This document shows, in pieces, positions 5,652-28,509 of a stretch of DNA of 52,751 bases. The notes beneath the pieces were generated by a model. It did no database searches. It worked only from the letters and a program-made list of their open reading frames with translations, and was not told the DNA's origin. Origin of the DNA: Clostridia bacterium (lineage in GTDB: Bacteria > Bacillota > Clostridia > Oscillospirales > CAG-272); contig JAFVTS010000018.1 of assembly GCA_017503105.1 (NCBI GenBank), positions 1 through 52,751 on the forward strand, given 5' to 3'. The position numbers and the translations under genes were made by a program. Within the stretch, counting starts at the first letter, position 1; each line of letters opens with the position of its first letter.

Positions 5652-6257
5652 TCAGAAATCGACAGTTTTATTGTCCGAAATCGACTCTACAAAACCCTTA
5701 TAGTCGTCGTAGGTGTAAAGAAGATTGACGGCTTCAAGAAGGGCGTTGGCAGTCATATCGGGAGGAAGCTCCATCAGTCCGCAAAGTGCCGCACGCCTCT
5801 TTGATGCGTGCTCACCGCCCGAAAGCCCGTCCTCGAAGAAATCGAGCTTTGTAACGGCTCTCCCCACACCCGTGTCGAGTTTTTCACCGTCAAAGAACGG
5901 AGAAAAGAGTCTTTCAAGCACCTCTCGCGGCATTCCTTCAACGCCGAGTATGCCTGCCTTCCCCGCCTTTTCCTTGCGCCTTTCCTTGCCCCCCATTTTC
6001 GGGATATGGAGGTTGTGGATCTTGTCTTTCGGAAGAATGGACGAAAGGAACGCCCTTATCTGCTTGCCGCCTCCGTCAGAGTCAACGAGGACTATCACCC
6101 CGTCCTTTGCTATTCTGCGCAAAAGCGCTTGCTTTTCCTTAGAATTAAATATCCCGAAACCGCCCGTTGTAATAACGGTGCAGTCAAAAATGGCTGTCAA
6201 GGTGATCTTGTCATACTTGCCCTCAACTATAACGGGCAACGATATCCTCTTCTTCAT
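5652..6257 (-). CDS. rnmV: ribonuclease M5
   Basis: Primase-like TOPRIM ribonuclease that matures the 5S rRNA precursor in low-GC Gram-positives. The TOPRIM domain is clear: VIVEGKYD near the N-terminus gives the catalytic glutamate, and VLVDSDGGG gives the DxD metal site. The DUF4093-like C-terminal half follows, with KMGGKERRKEKAG. About 201 residues is the normal length. The ATG at 6257 is chosen over an upstream in-frame start because it overlaps the nth stop codon as ATGA, which implies translational coupling. It is the last gene of maf-nth-rnmV and is followed by a strong terminator. Confidence 0.93.
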   Translation of the reverse strand: MKKRISLPVIVEGKYDKITLTAIFDCTVITTGGFGIFNSKEKQALLRRIAKDGVIVLVDSDGGGKQIRAFLSSILPKDKIHNLHIPKMGGKERRKEKAGKAGILGVEGMPREVLERLFSPFFDGEKLDTGVGRAVTKLDFFEDGLSGGEHASKRRAALCGLMELPPDMTANALLEAVNLLYTYDDYKGFVESISDNKTVDF

Positions 6258-21450: not shown

Positions 21451-22830
21451 ATGGATTTAAAGAAAAACGACGTTTTAACGGTCGATATAATAGATATTAC
21501 AGACCTCGGCTTCGGCGTTGCGAAGATCGGCGGAGCCGTAATATTCGTGTCCGACACAGTTCCCGGGGACAAGGCGGAAATAAAGATAATAAAAGCGACG
21601 CCGTCTTATTTTATAGCAAGGCTTGAGGAGCTTATATCTCCCTCCGTGAAGAGAGTTTCCGACAGGTGCCCACTCGCGCAGTGCAAGAGCTGTGCTTACA
21701 AAAATCTGTCGTACGAAAACGAGCTTATCATAAAAGAAAACGGAGTGCGCGAAACCTTCAAAAAGGCTGGGCTCTCTCACGTCAGGGTCGCAAGCGTCAT
21801 TTCCTCTCCCGACGTTTGCCGTTACAGAAACAAAGCGCAGTACCCCATCGGGAAAACTAAGGACGGAGAATACAAAATAGGCTTTTACGCACCGAAATCA
21901 CACCGAGTGACGGAAGCGGCAAAATGCCCGCTTGCTCCTGCGAATTTCGAGAAAATTCTCGACACGGTACGGCACTTCGCTAAAAATCACAACCTCTCCG
22001 TCTACGATGAAGAAAGCGGAAACGGACTCTTGCGCCACGTCTATTTAAGGCGCGCCGAGGTAAGCGGCGAGGTGCTCCTCACCCTCGTTATAAACGGCAG
22101 AGCTCTGCCCCACTCGGAAGAGCTCGTCGAAGAAATCAGACGTGAGCATCCTGAGGTGACGGGTATACTTCTGAACGTCAACGAACGGGCAACGAACGTT
22201 ATTCTCGGCGAGGAGTTTATCACCCTTTTCGGCAAGGACCATATAACCGACACGCTCGGCGGCGTCAGCCTTAAAATAACCGCGCCCTCGTTCTACCAGG
22301 TAAACCACGGCGCGGCGGAGCTTCTCTACGCCAAAGCAAAGGAGCTTGCCGCCCCCGAAAAGACGGACACGCTGCTCGACCTTTACTGCGGTGCGGGGTC
22401 CATCGGTCTTTCGATGGCGGATATGGCAGGTGAGGTCATAGGTATAGAAATCGTTGACAGCGCCGTTGAGTGCGCTAAATTCAACGCGGAAGAAAACGGG
22501 ATCAAAAACGCCTCGTTCTACGCGGGTGACGCGAAAAACACGGAGAAAATGCTTGAGCGTGCCGAGAGTGAGCGCGGAGCAAAAATAAAGCCCGATATAA
22601 TAATTCTCGACCCGCCGCGCGGCGGCTCAAGCGAGGAGCTTTTACGCTACATAGTAAAGCTCGCACCGAGGAAGATAGTCTATATCTCCTGCAACCCGAA
22701 AACCTTGGCAAGAGATATTTGCATCTTGCGCGAGCTTGGATACGATACGGACACGGTATTTCCCTTCGATCTTTTCCCCGCGACAGGGCACGTCGAGAGT
22801 GTCGTTTGTCTGACGAGGAATTTGCAATGA
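21451..22830 (+). CDS. rlmD: 23S rRNA (uracil-5-)-methyltransferase, RlmD/RumA family
   Basis: SAM-dependent methylation of a uridine in 23S rRNA. The TRAM RNA-binding domain is at about 1-60. Iron-sulfur cysteines are C73, C78, C81 and a later one in AAKCPLAP. The Rossmann methyltransferase domain has LLDLYCGAGSIGL, ILDPPRGG and YISCNPKTLARD with the catalytic cysteine at about 414. The family also includes RlmC/RlmCD, so the exact uridine is uncertain. The last codons (HVESVVCLTRN) overlap a 21-base sequence repeated at 27337-27357 and partly at 26805-26819, which marks the 3' end as an insertion site. Confidence 0.95.
   Translation: MDLKKNDVLTVDIIDITDLGFGVAKIGGAVIFVSDTVPGDKAEIKIIKATPSYFIARLEELISPSVKRVSDRCPLAQCKSCAYKNLSYENELIIKENGVRETFKKAGLSHVRVASVISSPDVCRYRNKAQYPIGKTKDGEYKIGFYAPKSHRVTEAAKCPLAPANFEKILDTVRHFAKNHNLSVYDEESGNGLLRHVYLRRAEVSGEVLLTLVINGRALPHSEELVEEIRREHPEVTGILLNVNERATNVILGEEFITLFGKDHITDTLGGVSLKITAPSFYQVNHGAAELLYAKAKELAAPEKTDTLLDLYCGAGSIGLSMADMAGEVIGIEIVDSAVECAKFNAEENGIKNASFYAGDAKNTEKMLERAESERGAKIKPDIIILDPPRGGSSEELLRYIVKLAPRKIVYISCNPKTLARDICILRELGYDTDTVFPFDLFPATGHVESVVCLTRNLQ
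22795..22815 (+). other. attachment-like direct repeat 1, in the 3' end of rlmD
   Basis: A 21-base sequence with core GAGTGTCGTTTGTCT (22797-22811) that is repeated perfectly at 27337-27357. It lies 15 bases before the rlmD stop codon. The 3' end of this gene family is, from memory, a known target of integrative elements in Firmicutes. Confidence 0.7.
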
Positions 22831-22831
22831 T

Positions 22832-22912
22832 TTGTAGGGACCGGCCTCCCGGACGGTCCGTTTATGAGATTTTGTCCATTTTTTGGACCGTCGAGGACGC
22901 CGGTCCCTACAA
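22832..22912. repeat. long imperfect inverted repeat (MITE-like)
   Basis: Arms of 28 bases (22832-22859 and 22885-22912) match at all but three or four positions; both begin TTGTAGGGACCGGC. The loop is 25 bases. It begins right after the rlmD stop codon. I recall similar TGTAGGGACCGG palindromes as dispersed intergenic elements in gut Clostridia. Confidence 0.8.
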
Positions 22913-22953
22913 GGTTGGTGTTCAAAATCAAAAAACGACCCGATTTTGCCTTG

Positions 22954-23026
22954 GGACAAATGTGCTTTTTGAGCAATACTCAAAAGCTCGTTTTACAGCA
23001 GTTTAGTATAACATATCGAAGGGTGA
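22954..23026 (+). repeat. shared leader repeat, copy 1, before the MBL-fold gene
   Basis: About 70 bases, closely matching 26058-26128. It contains the palindrome TTTGAG-5-CTCAAA, then TTTACAGCAGTTT, a -10-like TATAAC and a GGGTGA ribosome-site-like end. It seems to be a transferable expression leader placed before unrelated genes. Confidence 0.7.
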
Positions 23027-23037
23027 TATATTGTAAA

Positions 23038-23904
23038 ATGAATGATAAAACCTTACTTTATCAAATTACGGAAACAAGCAAATTTATGATGAGCTTTGTT
23101 TTGGTTACAAAGTCTGACAACGTAATCGTCATTGACGGAGGGCGTAAGGAAGACATGCCTCTTTTGAAGGAATACGTAGGTAACAGACATATTGCAGCAT
23201 GGATCCTGACGCATCCGCATGATGATCACATCAGTGGATTTATTTCGGAATTCAATCGAAATCGTTTAGCCGACTTCGATATTGAAAAGCTTTACTATAA
23301 CTTCCCTCCATACAATGAGCTGAAAGGCAGGACGGATGTTCCGGATGCAAAATATTTTGATCGGGAGTTAGAAGAGATACTTCCGGAATTTCTTAAAATA
23401 GAATCAGAGCTTTCGGATATTGCGCACATTGTTACACAGGGGGAAAGCGTGGAGATTGACGAGTGTCGGATCGATTTTATTTATACGTATCACGACGGTT
23501 TGTTTTCCAATTTGATGAATGATGCTTCGCTGGTTTTCAGCATTACCACACCGAATAAAAAGGTGCTGTTTCTCGGTGACCTTGGTCCTATGGGAGGTGA
23601 TGTACTTTATGAGGAATCACGGCATCTGCTTAAAGCTGACATCGTGCAAATGGCACACCACGGACATATGAATGTCGGAATGGAAGTTTACGCCGCCATT
23701 ATGCCGGAAGCTTGCATGTGGTGTTGTGCGGATTGGCTGTACAACGAGCCCGAGATACCAACGTATCTCGAAAACCGCAAAAAATTGCGTGATATGCAGC
23801 GTGAGCGTATGTACGGCACAACCGTAACGCGAAAATGGATGGATATTTTAGGAGTGAAAACGCATTACGTAACCAAGGACGGAACAAATGTCATTGAACT
23901 TTAA
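23038..23904 (+). CDS. MBL-fold (metallo-beta-lactamase superfamily) hydrolase
   Basis: 288 residues. The metal motif is THPHDDHISGF (about 59-69), with further ligands in GDLGPMGGD and MAHHGHMN. The layout resembles the ComEC-type and related MBL-fold hydrolases, whose substrates range from nucleotides to small esters, so no reaction is assigned. No signal peptide, hence cytoplasmic. Codon choice is more A/T-rich than in the neighbouring rlmD, consistent with acquisition. It is the first gene of the rlmD-end island and uses the 22954-23026 leader. Confidence 0.82.
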   Translation: MNDKTLLYQITETSKFMMSFVLVTKSDNVIVIDGGRKEDMPLLKEYVGNRHIAAWILTHPHDDHISGFISEFNRNRLADFDIEKLYYNFPPYNELKGRTDVPDAKYFDRELEEILPEFLKIESELSDIAHIVTQGESVEIDECRIDFIYTYHDGLFSNLMNDASLVFSITTPNKKVLFLGDLGPMGGDVLYEESRHLLKADIVQMAHHGHMNVGMEVYAAIMPEACMWCCADWLYNEPEIPTYLENRKKLRDMQRERMYGTTVTRKWMDILGVKTHYVTKDGTNVIEL

Positions 23905-23948
23905 CATATACCTTTTGGTCTTATACCCACCCCCGTTTTTATCATAGT

Positions 23949-24240
23949 AGATCCCGATGCTTCGCATCGCCCTACGGGTTCGACTGTGGGCTACGCCCTC
24001 CGCTCAGGATGACACATAGCCAGAGCATCGCCCGTGTCATCCTGAGCGAGCGCAGCGAGTCGAACTGCGAAGCAGTGCGAGGTGTAACCGAGCAGGATCT
24101 CGGGTGGTAGGAATCTAATTTTCGTCCGAGATCCCAAACGATGCTACGCACCGTTTGATCCTCGCTATGCTCGGATTTCGACTACGCTCAGGATGACACG
24201 GACGAAAAAGCACCGAGCAACGCGAAGGCGGGATCTCGGG
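23949..24240. repeat. cluster of REP-like palindromic repeats (three copies)
   Basis: Three related units lie at 23949-24015 (plus), 24034-24104 (minus) and 24126-24199 (plus). Each runs from an AGATCC-type end to GCTCAGGATGACAC. The third unit continues to 24240, where GGATCTCGG mirrors its CCGAGATCC start; TTTTCGTCCG and CGGACGAAAA also pair. This fills the gap 23905-24254. Such TCATCCTGAGCG repeats are widespread intergenic elements; the last ends 14 bases before the GIY-YIG gene. Confidence 0.85.
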
Positions 24241-24254
24241 CGAAAAGGAGCTTT

Positions 24255-24536
24255 ATGTACTACGTTTACATACTCACTAACAAAACCGATACGGTAATGT
24301 ATATCGGTGTGACCAACGATTTGCGTAGACGATTATACGAACACAAAAATGAGCAAATCGAAGGATTTACAAAAAAATATCACGTTCACAAGCTTGTTTA
24401 CTTTGAGGAGTATTCTGAAATTAACGACGCAATATTACGAGAAAAGCAACTAAAGCGTTGGGTACGCTCCAAAAAGAATTGGCTTGTGGAAACAAAAAAT
24501 CCCAATTGGGATGATTGGAGCGAAGGATTTATTTAG
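24255..24536 (+). CDS. small GIY-YIG nuclease-family protein
   Basis: 93 residues forming a single GIY-YIG domain: YYVYILTN, then MYIGVTNDLRRRLYEHK with the catalytic arginine, and ILREKQLKRW near the end with the metal-binding glutamate. It resembles the stand-alone YhbQ/UPF0213-like group, whose biological role is largely unknown. There is no DNA-targeting domain. AAGGAG precedes the ATG. It follows the palindromic repeat cluster directly, which makes a link between nuclease and repeats worth testing. Confidence 0.9.
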   Translation: MYYVYILTNKTDTVMYIGVTNDLRRRLYEHKNEQIEGFTKKYHVHKLVYFEEYSEINDAILREKQLKRWVRSKKNWLVETKNPNWDDWSEGFI

Positions 24537-24602
24537 CCGAAAATATACCTTAATATACGCAATAAACTAAAATAAATTTATATATACACGGAGGTATCAA
24601 AC

Positions 24603-25898
24603 ATGAACTTCAAACTCAACACAGCCAAAACCATTGGAAAGATGAAACCTATGCATGGCGTTGGTCAGGGCCCTTTTTCAGGCGTGGATTTTCACCTTTT
24701 CAAGCACTTAAAGGATGCAGGAATCCCCTTCTCACGTCTTCACGATGTGGGCGGCGCATACGGTGTGAACCGCTATGTCGATATTCCTAACATTTTCCGT
24801 GATTTTGACAAGGATGCAACAGATCCTGCAAACTACGACTTCGTTTTTACCGACCTACTGATCGCGGCGCTTGTCGAAAACGGCGTTGAGCCCTTCTTCC
24901 GCCTTGGTGTTACGATCGAAAACTATGCGAAGATCAAGGCCTATAACATTTATCCCCCTGCAGACAATCACAAGTGGGCTGTTATCTGCGAGCACATCAT
25001 CCGCCACTACACGGAAGGCTGGGCTAACGGATTCCACTACAACATCCGATATTGGGAGATATGGAACGAGCCCGACAACTACGAGGATATGTACGAAAAC
25101 CAGATGTGGCGAGGCACGAAGGAGCAGTACTACGAGCTTTACAACGTTGCCTCCAAGCACCTGAAAAAATGCTTCCCTCACCTCATGATAGGCGGTTATG
25201 GAAGTTGCGGATTCTACGCAATAGCAGACTCCTTCATGTCCTCTGCCAAGTCCTCGCCTCGCATGGAATACTTCATTGAGTTTCTCGACGGCTTCTTTGA
25301 CTATATCAAGAAGAACAACTGTCCGCTTGATTTCTTCTCCTGGCATAGCTACGATGGTATCAAAAACAATCAGCAATATGCTGCTTATGCACGCCGTCGC
25401 TTAGACGAAGCCGGGTATACCGAAACTCAGACCTTCTGCGATGAGTGGAACACAGAGGTCAAAATCGGCAGAACACCTCACCACGCGGCTCTTTGCGCAG
25501 GCATGCTTGCAGCATTACAGAATATGCCACTTGATGGTGCGATGTTCTATGATGCGCGCCTGCATATCACCACCTATGCAGGTCTTTTTGAGCCCTTCAA
25601 AGGAGATCCAACTCACGCATACCACGCCTTCAAGGAATACAACGAGCTTTACCGCCTTGGCACCCAGTGCGAAATCATCTATGATGAGGATCCCGTCTAT
25701 GCCGTTGCGGCAACGAACGAGAATCGCGCGGCAATGCTAATCGCGAACACCTCAAAGGAGGCAGTTCCTGTTTCCTTTGATATTCCGGGCACGGTTACAA
25801 AATGTCTGATTACCTCCGAGGATGGCATCGAGAAAGAAGTATCGCTCCCCGAATTTTTGCCGATGAGCAGTTTCCTGTTTGTCGAGATCGCTCTGTAA
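24603..25898 (+). CDS. GH39-type glycoside hydrolase, second paralog
   Basis: 431 residues, no signal peptide. The acid/base glutamate is E156 in EIWNEPD and the likely nucleophile E281 in CDEWNTE. The TIM barrel is at about 1-345, followed by a beta domain. It is clearly homologous along its length to the protein at 4142-5545, but this copy sits inside the rlmD-end island while the other is next to housekeeping genes. Probably an exo-acting enzyme on imported xylo- or uronic-acid-containing oligosaccharides; the substrate is not readable from sequence. ACGGAGG precedes the ATG. Confidence 0.85.
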   Translation: MNFKLNTAKTIGKMKPMHGVGQGPFSGVDFHLFKHLKDAGIPFSRLHDVGGAYGVNRYVDIPNIFRDFDKDATDPANYDFVFTDLLIAALVENGVEPFFRLGVTIENYAKIKAYNIYPPADNHKWAVICEHIIRHYTEGWANGFHYNIRYWEIWNEPDNYEDMYENQMWRGTKEQYYELYNVASKHLKKCFPHLMIGGYGSCGFYAIADSFMSSAKSSPRMEYFIEFLDGFFDYIKKNNCPLDFFSWHSYDGIKNNQQYAAYARRRLDEAGYTETQTFCDEWNTEVKIGRTPHHAALCAGMLAALQNMPLDGAMFYDARLHITTYAGLFEPFKGDPTHAYHAFKEYNELYRLGTQCEIIYDEDPVYAVAATNENRAAMLIANTSKEAVPVSFDIPGTVTKCLITSEDGIEKEVSLPEFLPMSSFLFVEIAL

Positions 25899-26005
25899 AT
25901 ACCGCAAACAGCTCGCCGTCCCCTGCCCCTCTGCTTTGGCGGACAATCGGAGGCTTCAAGACTTACAAAATCGACCACGATCTACACATCCATACGCATC
26001 TTTCG

Positions 26006-26045
26006 CTTTGCTCTGCCGATTCCGAACAATATCGGCAGAGCAAAG
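26006..26045. terminator. 15-base-pair hairpin after the island GH39 gene
   Basis: CTTTGCTCTGCCGAT (26006-26020) pairs perfectly with ATCGGCAGAGCAAAG (26031-26045). No good T-run follows, so it may be a transcript-end stabiliser or repeat element instead of a classical terminator. The gap 25899-26136 otherwise holds only the shared leader. Confidence 0.6.
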
Positions 26046-26057
26046 GAAAACGGTTAA

Positions 26058-26128
26058 GGACAAATGTTACTTTTGAGCAATGCTCGAAAATACAATTTAC
26101 AGCAGTTTGGTATAACATATCGAGGTGA
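26058..26128 (+). repeat. shared leader repeat, copy 2
   Basis: Closely matches 22954-23026. It has TTTTGAGCAATGCTCGAAA, TTTACAGCAGTTTGG, TATAAC in an extended -10 context, and GAGGTGA as the ribosome site for the gene at 26137. Confidence 0.7.
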
Positions 26129-26136
26129 GTAAGGCA

Positions 26137-26730
26137 ATGAATGACAACGAAAAACTGTATAAAGTATATCATCGAAATTACAAAAGTATCAAAGAATTAT
26201 ACGATGATTTAAGCGATGCTGTTATAAATATTGGTTTCGAAAACAATAAAATCATTATTCATTACAATTCCGATACACTTGAGATTGAGCCAAGCCGATG
26301 GGGGTACTATACATATCTAAATGGAAAAAGAGAAGCAGGCGAGTGGGAAGATCAAGATATATATTTTTATGCTTTGGAGTTTGTTCATGAACAGCAAAAA
26401 GGGTTAACCGAGTTTGAAATAAATGATACAAGCATTGTTCGCATCACTAATGAAGGTATTACTTATTTCGACGAATTAGGTAGAAATCATTTCATTAGTT
26501 ACGAGAATTGCGCAATGAATGGTCCAACTGCATCTTGCGTAGCCAAACGAGATATTACAAAATGGTATTTTAAATTTTATTCATCAAGCGTTTCGATTAA
26601 GTTTGTGTTCAGAAGTCTTTTCGCTTTCAAAAGAGGAACGCGATTCTTAACCGGTGGAAGGGCAAGGCGATTCAGAACTTTACAAAAATTGATTGCAGAT
26701 AGTGGATATACTACTTACGATTTGTCGTGA
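26137..26730 (+). CDS. hypothetical protein in the rlmD-end island
   Basis: 197 residues, A/T-rich codon use unlike the flanking housekeeping genes. No family recognised. The N-terminal part is acidic and mixed alpha/beta; a stretch near 150-165 (FYSSSVSIKFVFRSLFAF) is hydrophobic but broken by charges. No signal peptide. ATG 26137 is preferred over GTG 26125 because GAGGTGA is better placed. It is the only gene directly behind leader copy 2, so it is probably the expressed cargo of that unit. Confidence 0.65.
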   Translation: MNDNEKLYKVYHRNYKSIKELYDDLSDAVINIGFENNKIIIHYNSDTLEIEPSRWGYYTYLNGKREAGEWEDQDIYFYALEFVHEQQKGLTEFEINDTSIVRITNEGITYFDELGRNHFISYENCAMNGPTASCVAKRDITKWYFKFYSSSVSIKFVFRSLFAFKRGTRFLTGGRARRFRTLQKLIADSGYTTYDLS

Positions 26731-26804
26731 TTTGAGGACTTTTTGTACTTACAACCCCTATTTTTGACCGATTTTATACCTTTGGTACTCTTGACCCACA
26801 CCTT

Positions 26805-26819
26805 GAGTGTCGTTTGTCT
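26805..26819 (+). other. attachment-like direct repeat 2 (imperfect)
   Basis: Core GAGTGTCGTTTGTCT identical to repeats 1 and 3. The surrounding codons can be read as HTLSVVCLSREK, a homologue of the rlmD C-terminus HVESVVCLTRN, so this looks like a displaced 3' end of another rlmD allele. Confidence 0.65.
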
Positions 26820-26914
26820 AAGTAGGGAAAAGACCGACGATTATATTCGCATATCTAATTTGCAAACAAAGGCGAACTTACCGACAAATTTAAATATATG
26901 GAAGGAATAAATCA

Positions 26915-27256
26915 ATGAACAAAAAGTCAGATGTGTTATTGTATGTGGGAATTCCGTTAATTGTTGAAATTTGTCTTGGGTTTGGTTTTGTTATTGCTGG
27001 TGCTTTAGAAATTCCAACCAATCGCGGTATTGTGTACACAACTCTTTTATCCATTTCTATATTTGGTTCCTTATTAGTTCCCGTCCCGTGCAGTATATCT
27101 TCAATATTAGGAATTAAAAAGGCTGTCAAATTACGAAAACACGACGAAAAAAATACAGGATTACCGATTCTGATTGGCACAGTAAATATCGTTGTTTCAT
27201 TAGTTGTTTTTGCGTTTTGGTTATATGTTATTTTCGTTGTCGGACCCAGTGCTTAG
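26915..27256 (+). CDS. small hypothetical membrane protein in the rlmD-end island
   Basis: 113 residues with three predicted membrane segments (about 8-30, 42-64 and 84-110) and a short basic loop KKAVKLRKHDEK. No family recognised. AAGGAAT precedes the ATG. It is the only gene between attachment-like repeats 2 and 3, making a unit of about 0.5 kb. Confidence 0.65.
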   Translation: MNKKSDVLLYVGIPLIVEICLGFGFVIAGALEIPTNRGIVYTTLLSISIFGSLLVPVPCSISSILGIKKAVKLRKHDEKNTGLPILIGTVNIVVSLVVFAFWLYVIFVVGPSA

Positions 27257-27336
27257 ATTCTTATCATGTCATTTTAAAACAAAAAGCAGGGTGCAAATTC
27301 AATATATCAATCACATTGGTAGACTCCTTACCTTAA

Positions 27337-27357
27337 GAGAGTGTCGTTTGTCTGACG
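27337..27357 (+). other. attachment-like direct repeat 3 (perfect copy of repeat 1)
   Basis: Twenty-one of 21 bases identical to 22795-22815. Outside the repeat the flanks differ, and there is no gene reading through it. It marks the distal end of the island. Confidence 0.75.
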
Positions 27358-27378
27358 CGACGGCTCGACAACTAAGTT

Positions 27379-27430
27379 TGACATCTCCAAGCCTTCCCTT
27401 GTCAGGGAAGGGGGACCGCTTGCGGTTGAT
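27379..27430. repeat. part of a dispersed palindromic element
   Basis: CCTTCCC and GGGAAGG pair around TTGTCA, followed by GGGGACCGCTTGCGG and GATGAGTAG. I recall closely similar AAGCCTTCCC elements as intergenic repeats in gut Clostridia; only one half seems present. Confidence 0.55.
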
Positions 27431-27480
27431 GAGTAGTCTGTACGTGCATTCGCAGTTTATACGTATAAGAGGTAATAAAT

Positions 27481-28509
27481 GTGAAAAATACGGAGAAATG
27501 CGTCGGGGAGCTTTTTGCTTCTGAGACGGTCGGAAATATAATAATCAGAGTCGGACGCAGTGACGACGTTCTTTTTGAGCTTTTCCGCTCACGCGAGGCG
27601 AGGACCTTAACGAGCAGGACGCTTTTCGATATGGCGTCGGTGACTAAAATAGTAGTTACTACTTCCCTCTCACTTATCGCCATGCAAGAAGGTAAAATAT
27701 CTCCTTCGGACAAGGTGAGCCGATTTTTCAGCGTTCCCGATGATAAAAATGAGCTGAGCGTTTGGCATCTTCTGACTCACACTATGGGTATTGGACACAA
27801 ATCGATGCTAAAAGGCGGCGAGTATTCAAAAATCCAAGATTACATTTTGAGTATTCCGTCCGATATTCCGATAGGGTCAAACGTCTTGTACAGTTGTCCC
27901 GGGTTTATCCTGCTTGGAAGAATACTTGAAGAGGTATTCGGAAAGAGGCTTGACGAGGCATTTTACGAGCGTGTTTCGGCACCGCTCGGTATGGAAGCGA
28001 GCGTATTTTTACCCGACAGGACGAAGGACATAGTTAACGCGAACATTGGGGCGAACGAGTGCGGACTAGTCAACGATTACAACTGCCGTTTTCTCGGCGG
28101 CGTTGCGGGAAACGCGGGGCTGTTTTCGAACGTCGATGACTTAACAAAATACGTAAAAGCTCTTCTTGGGCGTCCCTCTCCACTATTCTCCGAAGATATA
28201 CTAAGCCTCGCTTGGCAAAATCACACGCCGAATATGGATGACTCCCGCGGTCTTGGGTTCCTCGTTGTCGATGAGCGTTACGCACAAACAGGCAAACTTT
28301 TCCCCTATGGGAGCATAGGGCACTGCGGTCATACGGGCACGTCCGTGTTTCTTGACCCGAAAAGCAAATTTTACACTATCATTCTCTCGGATGCGACGGC
28401 AAGCACCGTCCAAAAATACGGAAAAGAAAATTACGATGAAGTCAAGCGTATGCGCCACGACTTACACGAAGCCATAAAGAAAGATCTCGTGGAGGAAGCC
28501 GGCAAATGA
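27481..28509 (+). CDS. serine hydrolase, class-C beta-lactamase/DD-peptidase fold
   Basis: 342 residues. Catalytic SxxK is S53-V-T-K56; the second motif is Y137-S-C instead of the usual YxN; the third is HTG in GHCGHTGTS. No signal peptide, unlike true beta-lactamases and carboxypeptidases, so a cytoplasmic esterase or amidase is more likely. It starts at GTG behind AGAGGT and overlaps the next gene by ATGA, so three genes (hydrolase, kinase, phosphatase) form an operon. Annotation as antibiotic resistance would not be supported. Confidence 0.85.
   Translation: MKNTEKCVGELFASETVGNIIIRVGRSDDVLFELFRSREARTLTSRTLFDMASVTKIVVTTSLSLIAMQEGKISPSDKVSRFFSVPDDKNELSVWHLLTHTMGIGHKSMLKGGEYSKIQDYILSIPSDIPIGSNVLYSCPGFILLGRILEEVFGKRLDEAFYERVSAPLGMEASVFLPDRTKDIVNANIGANECGLVNDYNCRFLGGVAGNAGLFSNVDDLTKYVKALLGRPSPLFSEDILSLAWQNHTPNMDDSRGLGFLVVDERYAQTGKLFPYGSIGHCGHTGTSVFLDPKSKFYTIILSDATASTVQKYGKENYDEVKRMRHDLHEAIKKDLVEEAGK

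Follow-up and report, generated by a model that had tools for sequence, protein, structure and literature searches.

Streptococcal integrative and conjugative elements (ICEs) and integrative and mobilizable elements (IMEs), together with CTn5 of C. difficile 630-delta-erm, use a single serine integrase that targets rumA (rlmD), and the accessible part of the report describing them records a reciprocal exchange of 3' ends between rumA and the integrase gene, with short direct repeats of which one copy lies inside the integrase gene (PMC4701971). The available portions of two further reports describe a serine-recombinase IME that inserts mainly into MAFF2 open reading frames (ORFs) (PMC12904643), and a recombinase-less pseudo-staphylococcal cassette chromosome (pseudo-SCC) stacked with a further fragment, with an att site between them (PMC4651549). 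Here we describe an island behind rlmD in contig JAFVTS010000018.1 of a Clostridia bacterium (GCA_017503105.1); the window, by which we mean the whole stretch analysed, comprises 52,751 nucleotides. An earlier note, made from the letters of the window alone, had read this island as the product of repeated site-specific integration at a gene end.

We consider it probable that the island is a stack of small units without a recombinase at the rlmD 3' end, most likely joined and released by a large serine recombinase of the rumA/rlmD type. In the mechanism that we propose, the start of a unit would replace the last rlmD codons (HVESVVCL...); a leader would come next, then in most cases a single cargo gene, and finally a conserved 3' end. 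The enzyme joining and releasing the units would most likely be of the kind that integrates conjugative and mobilizable elements into rumA/rlmD; crossover would fall at the His-Val-Glu codons, where we infer its exact point to lie; and each newly inserted first unit would furnish rlmD with a new working tail. The last rlmD codons of the window were probably supplied by its first unit.

The window carries three copies of the putative site. A stretch of 21 bases (GAGAGTGTCGTTTGTCTGACG) lies at 22795-22815, at the rlmD end, and recurs with 100% identity at 27337-27357, as the earlier note had stated; so too the 15-base core (GAGTGTCGTTTGTCT) that it had placed at 26805-26819, which reads HTLSVVCLSR in frame. 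Consecutive cores are spaced by 4008 and 534 bases. Across the window's genome (G000; 2,603,637 bases in 44 contigs) the core occurs three times on the forward strand and never on the reverse, all three at the rlmD site, and the reversed control pattern has no occurrence; the concern that the core might be a common random repeat has thus been laid to rest. In 98 genomes, comprising this one and its relatives, 34 matches with at most one mismatch were found: 11 at an rlmD end, 13 on the same strand within 12 kb downstream of rlmD, and 10 elsewhere, nine of these last with a mismatch and one, exact, lying at a contig edge in G002. Exact cores number 14, of which 13 are at or behind rlmD and one at that contig edge. 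We reject a chance repeat because the core concentrates at or behind rlmD, in all three copies in the window's genome and in most of those in its relatives.

Further copies in the same direction stand behind rlmD in related genomes. RlmD was detected in 63 of 69 genus genomes, and we compared the rlmD 3' end plus up to ~12 kb downstream in 59 genus loci and the window (60 loci; one of the 60 tails, that of G099, was unread by the regular expression). The rlmD end scored at least 18 bits in 46/60, a count that is partly so by construction because the matrix was trained on such ends, and whose weakest scores, such as that of G067, are doubtful; the exact-core count is unaffected. At least 1 kb of downstream contig is available in 36 of the 46; in 20 of these the site recurs one or more times in the same direction, with no reverse-strand match at 18 bits or more in 476,872 bases. 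Two loci below the threshold at rlmD nevertheless have an internal copy. Arrays are probably under-counted, because in 10 of the 46 the contig ends less than 1 kb from rlmD.

Beyond the genus, one form of internal junction was found in 72 stretches of a collection holding one genome each for 84,980 bacterial and archaeal species. All 72 are titled as metagenome-assembled genomes (MAGs) of Clostridia, Clostridiales or Oscillospiraceae and, where titles give a source, come from gut samples of sheep, goat, deer, yak and water buffalo. Within the order, the junction pattern occurs in 4/394 genomes (three other genera of the family and one other family), with no control match. These counts are lower bounds, because the pattern misses even the window's own copies (0 in G000). 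A single match in a viral collection (L233, IMG/VR, 5701-5729) was judged a chance one, being antisense to a conserved box of a tyrosine integrase gene.

The intervals between sites have a common build. Genus loci and Clostridia MAGs, two overlapping sources, yielded 111 distinct site-to-site units of 192-3496 bp (median 860 bp), after exact duplicates had been removed from 129; the sequences are related and not independent, and spacings above 3500 bp are omitted. For this reason the window's 4008-bp interval is not among the 111, and its 534-bp interval is absent because the last copy scores too low. The typical order is rlmD-like tail, leader, cargo gene and conserved 3' end. Where a unit has an ORF of at least 70 aa, the longest lies on the rlmD strand (104/106 units); before duplicate removal, 81/129 units had one such forward ORF and 36/129 had two. 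To the right of the site a stop codon follows soon after HVESVVCL (e.g. TRK*), and then the leader, one form of which is a 66-bp repeat present twice in the window. The unit's 3' end (..ATATACCTTTTGGAGTCTTGAC) abuts the CAYGTNGA of the next unit, and its motif ATATACCTTTTGG..(CTTGAC or TTATGAC)C, or a near form, precedes 106 of 146 sites outside the rlmD class and often recurs ~40 bp upstream. The CAYGTNGA is common to rlmD-class and internal sites and the left arms differ; automatic classing left 38/230 sites as 'other', many of which, though not all, are by eye the ends of units.

Cargo is varied. We scanned 85 proteins, namely 81 of 90 de-duplicated unit ORFs (151 before; the 9 shortest dropped) and 4 from the window, and Pfam assigned 50 families, at least 43 of them represented only once; among them are an HpaII-type restriction enzyme, a peptidase, a C5 DNA methylase and GH39. 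Two members each were found for metallo-beta-lactamase (MBL)-fold, PHP and GH43 proteins, and four of the 85 match the four-helix-bundle family; by motif, a four-helix-bundle gene is present in 21/111 units, where a hairpin and then a comb of short repeats typically precede it. Matches to PADLOC include parts of restriction-modification systems.

Different species carry near-identical units (88-96% DNA identity) at different positions of their arrays. The third unit of G007 matches the first of G074 from core to core (88.7% over 626 of 654 bp), the first units of G029 and G080 and a later part of G006 are 94.7-95.7% identical, the second unit of G098 is 89.2% identical to one of G019, and the MBL stretch of the window matches the first G008 unit at 91.4% over 1161 bp. 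The corresponding RlmD proteins, partial for some, are 68% identical for G007/G074 and G029/G080, 58% for G006/G029 and 61% for G006/G080; G000 and G008 have RlmD proteins just 51% identical despite their common MBL unit, and the G019/G098 comparison gave no value.

Site copies vary as coding sequence does, also where they no longer encode anything. Differences from the consensus at codon positions 1/2/3 number 79/66/260 in 140 internal, no longer coding copies and 68/50/192 in 84 rlmD-class copies; this count omits two recombinase-end sites and the sites of L185 and L189, and the sites were picked by a matrix or pattern lenient at wobble positions. Because of that leniency we recounted genus junctions recognised by the 3'-end signature alone: all 15 of 15 had a site behind them, and the three positions gave 10/8/32. 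The 87 junctions in named loci, themselves chosen by pattern, gave 51/40/170. Such a third-position bias would be expected if unit starts had repeatedly served as the rlmD end; the counts are descriptive and the sites mutually related.

A family of serine recombinases specific for rlmD has genes that end in the same site. In L232 and G028 a large serine recombinase gene, with Resolvase, Recombinase and zinc-ribbon domains, ends in the site (DTQVESLVCLTRK and DTQVETIVCLCKQ) with units directly behind it; the recombinases were characterised by Pfam domains only. Just upstream of the G028 gene is a Mob_Pre relaxase fragment. Units probably lie directly behind such a gene also in a third genome, G392, where a recombinase fragment at the contig edge has behind it a unit-like leader very similar to that which follows rlmD in G065. 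Among 40 stretches fetched for recombinase ends in the genus (against 55 Resolvase matches in 24 genus genomes), only G028 has the site at the recombinase-gene end; the copy found in L246 belongs to the rlmD gene of G061. Relatives occur in 33/394 genomes of the order. Nine full-length ones are at least 81% identical, and in eight of these (H/Q)(V/I)E leads into a short C-terminal tail, RlmD-like and varying between genomes; the ninth (G122) runs into a long tail.

We sought rlmD in 15 recombinase genomes (the 12 best by E-value, G375, G392 and G028) and found it on one contig with the recombinase in eight, whose enzymes are 64-89% identical to that of G028. In all eight the recombinase is on the same strand, 12.2-26.8 kb downstream of rlmD, which answers to the earlier note's suggestion that a recombinase be looked for near other rlmD ends; its tail is short in six and long in G122 and G451. 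The rlmD tail itself extends ~100 aa beyond HVE in 13 of the 15 and 10 aa in one, and that of L322 was unread. Because the gene ends and the linkage match the streptococcal rumA end-swap, we assign the site family, by sequence, to the rumA/rlmD serine recombinases. That the site was used repeatedly for integration, as the earlier note proposed, is supported both by this family, whose own gene ends in the site, and by the same-direction copies in relatives, with units 89-96% identical at differing positions. We rejected a tyrosine recombinase as the enzyme that moves the units: the best match in most genus genomes (by eye), ~350 aa in length, is unlinked to the arrays. The 353-aa copy in the window's genome has Phage_integrase and SAM-like domains and looks Xer-like.

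The long RlmD tails (L017, L315, L316, L318-L321, L323-L328) mostly share the form SKL..(K/T)QHIEVEL..ATY.EIK.YV.. At serine-recombinase loci of other families within the order (L286, L294, L298, L307), ORFs of 501-687 aa have a similar C-terminus (..(E/D)KE.AI..A...F.M.), which suggests full-size elements stacked in tandem at rlmD in those families.

The features of the window's array are as follows.

21451..22830, + strand: rlmD (rumA), the target gene; TIGR00479 at 382.4 bits against a cut-off of 183.55; ends HVESVVCLTRNLQ*
22795..22815, + strand: site copy 1, the rlmD end and start of unit 1; core at 22797-22811
22832..22912, no strand assigned: 28-bp inverted repeat in the unit 1 leader; arms 22832-22859 and 22885-22912
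22954..23019, + strand: unit leader repeat copy 1, before the cargo gene; 83% identical to 26058-26123 and resembling the leaders of other units
23038..23904, + strand: cargo gene 1, MBL-fold hydrolase of 288 aa; PF00753, E=9.6e-13
23908..23929, + strand: unit 3'-end signature (ATACCTTTTGGTCTTATACCCA) by signature match, with no core behind
24255..24536, + strand: GIY-YIG protein of 93 aa; PF01541; in a block with inverted repeats common to G099 (91.6% over 592 bp)
24603..25898, + strand: GH39-like protein of 431 aa; PF01229, E=1.7e-19
26058..26123, + strand: unit leader repeat copy 2, by repeat comparison; start of a further unit, with no core in front
26125..26730, + strand: cargo gene of 201 aa; no family above curated cut-off
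26776..26797, + strand: unit 3'-end signature (ATACCTTTGGTACTCTTGACCC) by signature match
26805..26819, + strand: core of site copy 2
26915..27256, + strand: cargo gene of 113 aa, hydrophobic; no family found
27337..27357, + strand: site copy 3, then an apparent decayed hairpin-type unit start

Unit 1 begins at 22797, takes in the MBL gene and closes with the signature at 23908; behind it come the repeat-rich GIY-YIG block and then the GH39-like gene. A further unit extends from the leader at 26058 to the signature at 26776 and the core at 26805, and the 113-aa gene lies between 26805 and 27339. The nested units of about 4.0 and 0.5 kb that had been proposed stand as spacings, and the longer one is, judging from the further unit-end and leader signatures inside it (23908, 22954, 26058), a composite and no single insertion. 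The third copy (ESVVCLTRRLDN*) runs on into CGACGGCTCGACAACTAAGTT, like the hairpin-type unit starts of relatives (we compared the tails of G061, G063, G068, G070 and G076); because of this continuation it resembles less a clean end of the chromosome than the start of a further, decayed unit. Base composition is uneven: the A/T-richness attributed to the whole island holds for 26000-27499 (34-38% GC) and fails over 24500-25999 (44-51% GC), the region of the GH39-like gene. The leader of the matching G008 unit lacks the inverted repeat at 22832-22912, which may be a small interspersed repeat inserted later. Parts of the inverted-repeat block with the GIY-YIG gene (CATCCTGAGCG.., 23950-24536) recur at 91-92% identity in G008 and G099.

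A number of results weigh against the reading of the island as units moved by a rumA/rlmD serine recombinase. The rlmD end is below the score in 14/60 genus loci, and 16 of the 36 scoring loci with at least 1 kb downstream have no further copy. The comparison for empty sites used one genome per species, and among these there is no strain-level empty site; nor was an excised circle seen. A by-eye comparison of coordinates placed no recombinase match within the downstream stretches that were fetched. The window's contig (C41) has no Resolvase-family match, in keeping with the earlier note, which saw no recombinase in the island; the four such matches of its genome are on C39 (two), C30 and C18, and the relatives of the rlmD-linked recombinase there are only 26-27% identical. 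Because this genome holds only such distant relatives, we infer that the rumA/rlmD enzyme moves the small units in trans. The idea that the left arm of a unit and the end of the recombinase gene are one and the same half-site found no support (fractions in the synonymous control of 0.11 for L232 and 0.31 for L245, and in shuffles of 0.06 and 0.10). Among 10 gene ends compared with the left arm post hoc, L185 stood out at 0.001 of shuffles and L299 came to 0.04, which is weak for 10 comparisons. Because the left arm is unlike the G028 and L232 gene ends, a recombinase of other specificity may be the true mover.

Three other explanations deserve weighing. The units could be dead ends, that is, once-complete rumA/rlmD elements shortened by deletion, stacked by successive integration and immobile alone, as in the accretion of cis-mobilizable elements (CIMEs) that the accessible part of one report gives as known for mobilizable elements (PMC5704250). 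We regard this as unlikely. The window's array does look decayed, with core-less signatures at 23929 and before 26058 and a decayed unit after 27357, and the distance of the recombinase relatives in its genome fits as well; but random deletion would not leave one 3' end on many units of unrelated cargo (the 106 of 146 sites above), the recurrence of one cassette architecture may speak against each unit having decayed separately, and one small unit sits, core to core, third in G007 and first in G074. Still less probable, in our judgement, is that the units are rearranged and dispersed with no site-specific enzyme, through homologous recombination at the repeated rlmD tails and leaders. It would suit the junctions in G013 and G072 and one in G076 that, by eye, appear to be recombinants within the core (perhaps a sign of homologous recombination, perhaps of another crossover point) and that count against our own reading, and also the units of G029 and G080, which have common cargo behind different front parts. 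Against it, the stretch in common is only ~23 bp and variable, the RlmD proteins of four sharing pairs are just 58-68% identical, and homology alone is no explanation for the divergence, at CAYGTNGA, of the left arms between internal and rlmD-class sites.

It seems very improbable indeed that hairpins direct insertion by an element, RNA-based or otherwise, associated with the four-helix-bundle (23S IVP, S23-like) gene. The gene recurs in the 21 units mentioned, and its family is found in 41 of the 45 genus genomes examined for it; members also lie at other places in the genome, some of them behind tRNA-like 3' ends with hairpins. As driver we reject it: the motif is absent from 90/111 units, as from the ORFs of the window, and yet the site is the same, while the hairpin left arm tends to accompany the right-hand side behind it and is better read as part of the unit. 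What we favour over all three remains a stack of small units served by a rumA/rlmD-type serine recombinase.

At L123, L124, L127, L131, L139, L140 and L148, four-helix-bundle (TIGR02436) genes have upstream a hairpin and a comb of motifs in forward and then inverted copies, and these stretches lie directly behind apparent tRNA genes. They are possibly a separate, undescribed class of element; in titles and abstracts of the open-access literature we found no four-helix or tandem-repeat element of such kind.

We put forward, tentatively and as somewhat less likely than not, a broader idea: integron-like gene capture by a large serine recombinase, with the 3' ends of rlmD and of the recombinase gene as landing site, in which single-gene cassettes are captured serially, each with an interchangeable working RlmD C-terminus, in several genera of gut Clostridia. 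Because each cassette would bring such a C-terminus, capture would cost the host little. If this is true, the ability to sustain arrays of tiny mobile cassettes would extend from integron integrases to serine recombinases, here in anaerobic gut bacteria. It would explain how the tail of one gene can vary as a mobile trait and yet keep its code. One short site would suffice to locate the arrays, and their cargo (restriction-modification, hydrolases, proteins without a family) would be a ready list of accessory genes under transfer.

How, then, does the locus compare with known systems? With the rumA ICEs and IMEs it has in common the target gene, the exchange of gene ends and a site copy in the recombinase gene; those elements, in the part of the report available, carry an integrase and transfer or mobilization genes, whereas the units here are 0.2-3.5 kb, mostly of one gene, and arrayed (PMC4701971). 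The streptococcal exchange is also reported there to alter the reading frame, and here HVES(V/L)VCL mostly stays in frame. The rlmD tails change with the unit behind them, and tails differ among the recombinase elements too; a serine integrase gene is missing from the window's contig and present in G028. CIMEs, as described in the accessible part of PMC5704250, likewise have no integration or transfer genes, sites at both ends and stacking at one locus. The island keeps putative att sites at 22797, 26805 and 27339 and has no integration or transfer genes; its cassette architecture is conserved over many unrelated cargos, in contrast to individual decayed elements. SCC elements resemble it in inserting at the 3' end of an rRNA methyltransferase gene, rlmH, and their recombinase Ccr is a serine recombinase. 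The pseudo-SCC is, in the available part of its report, 10,252 bp long with 8 ORFs (PMC4651549), against a median of 860 bp for the units here. The target also differs, being RlmD (TIGR00479) and not rlmH, as do, so far as known, the recombinases. Integrons are arrays of cassettes handled by a tyrosine recombinase with attI and folded attC sites. The likeness is in arrays of small, mostly single-gene units of varied cargo with one recombination site each; the difference is that a large serine recombinase is probably at work here and that the site, a conserved coding-like stretch, doubles as the coding tail of a housekeeping gene. No Phage_integrase match, which an integron-type integrase by the array would give, is present in the fetched downstream stretches (by eye; the IntI model was not run). 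Titles and abstracts in the open-access literature yielded no description of recombinase-less cassette arrays with spare RlmD tails. The rumA/rlmD target and the kind of recombinase are already known; new are the integron-like arrays of tiny, recombinase-less cassettes that bring their own RlmD tails.

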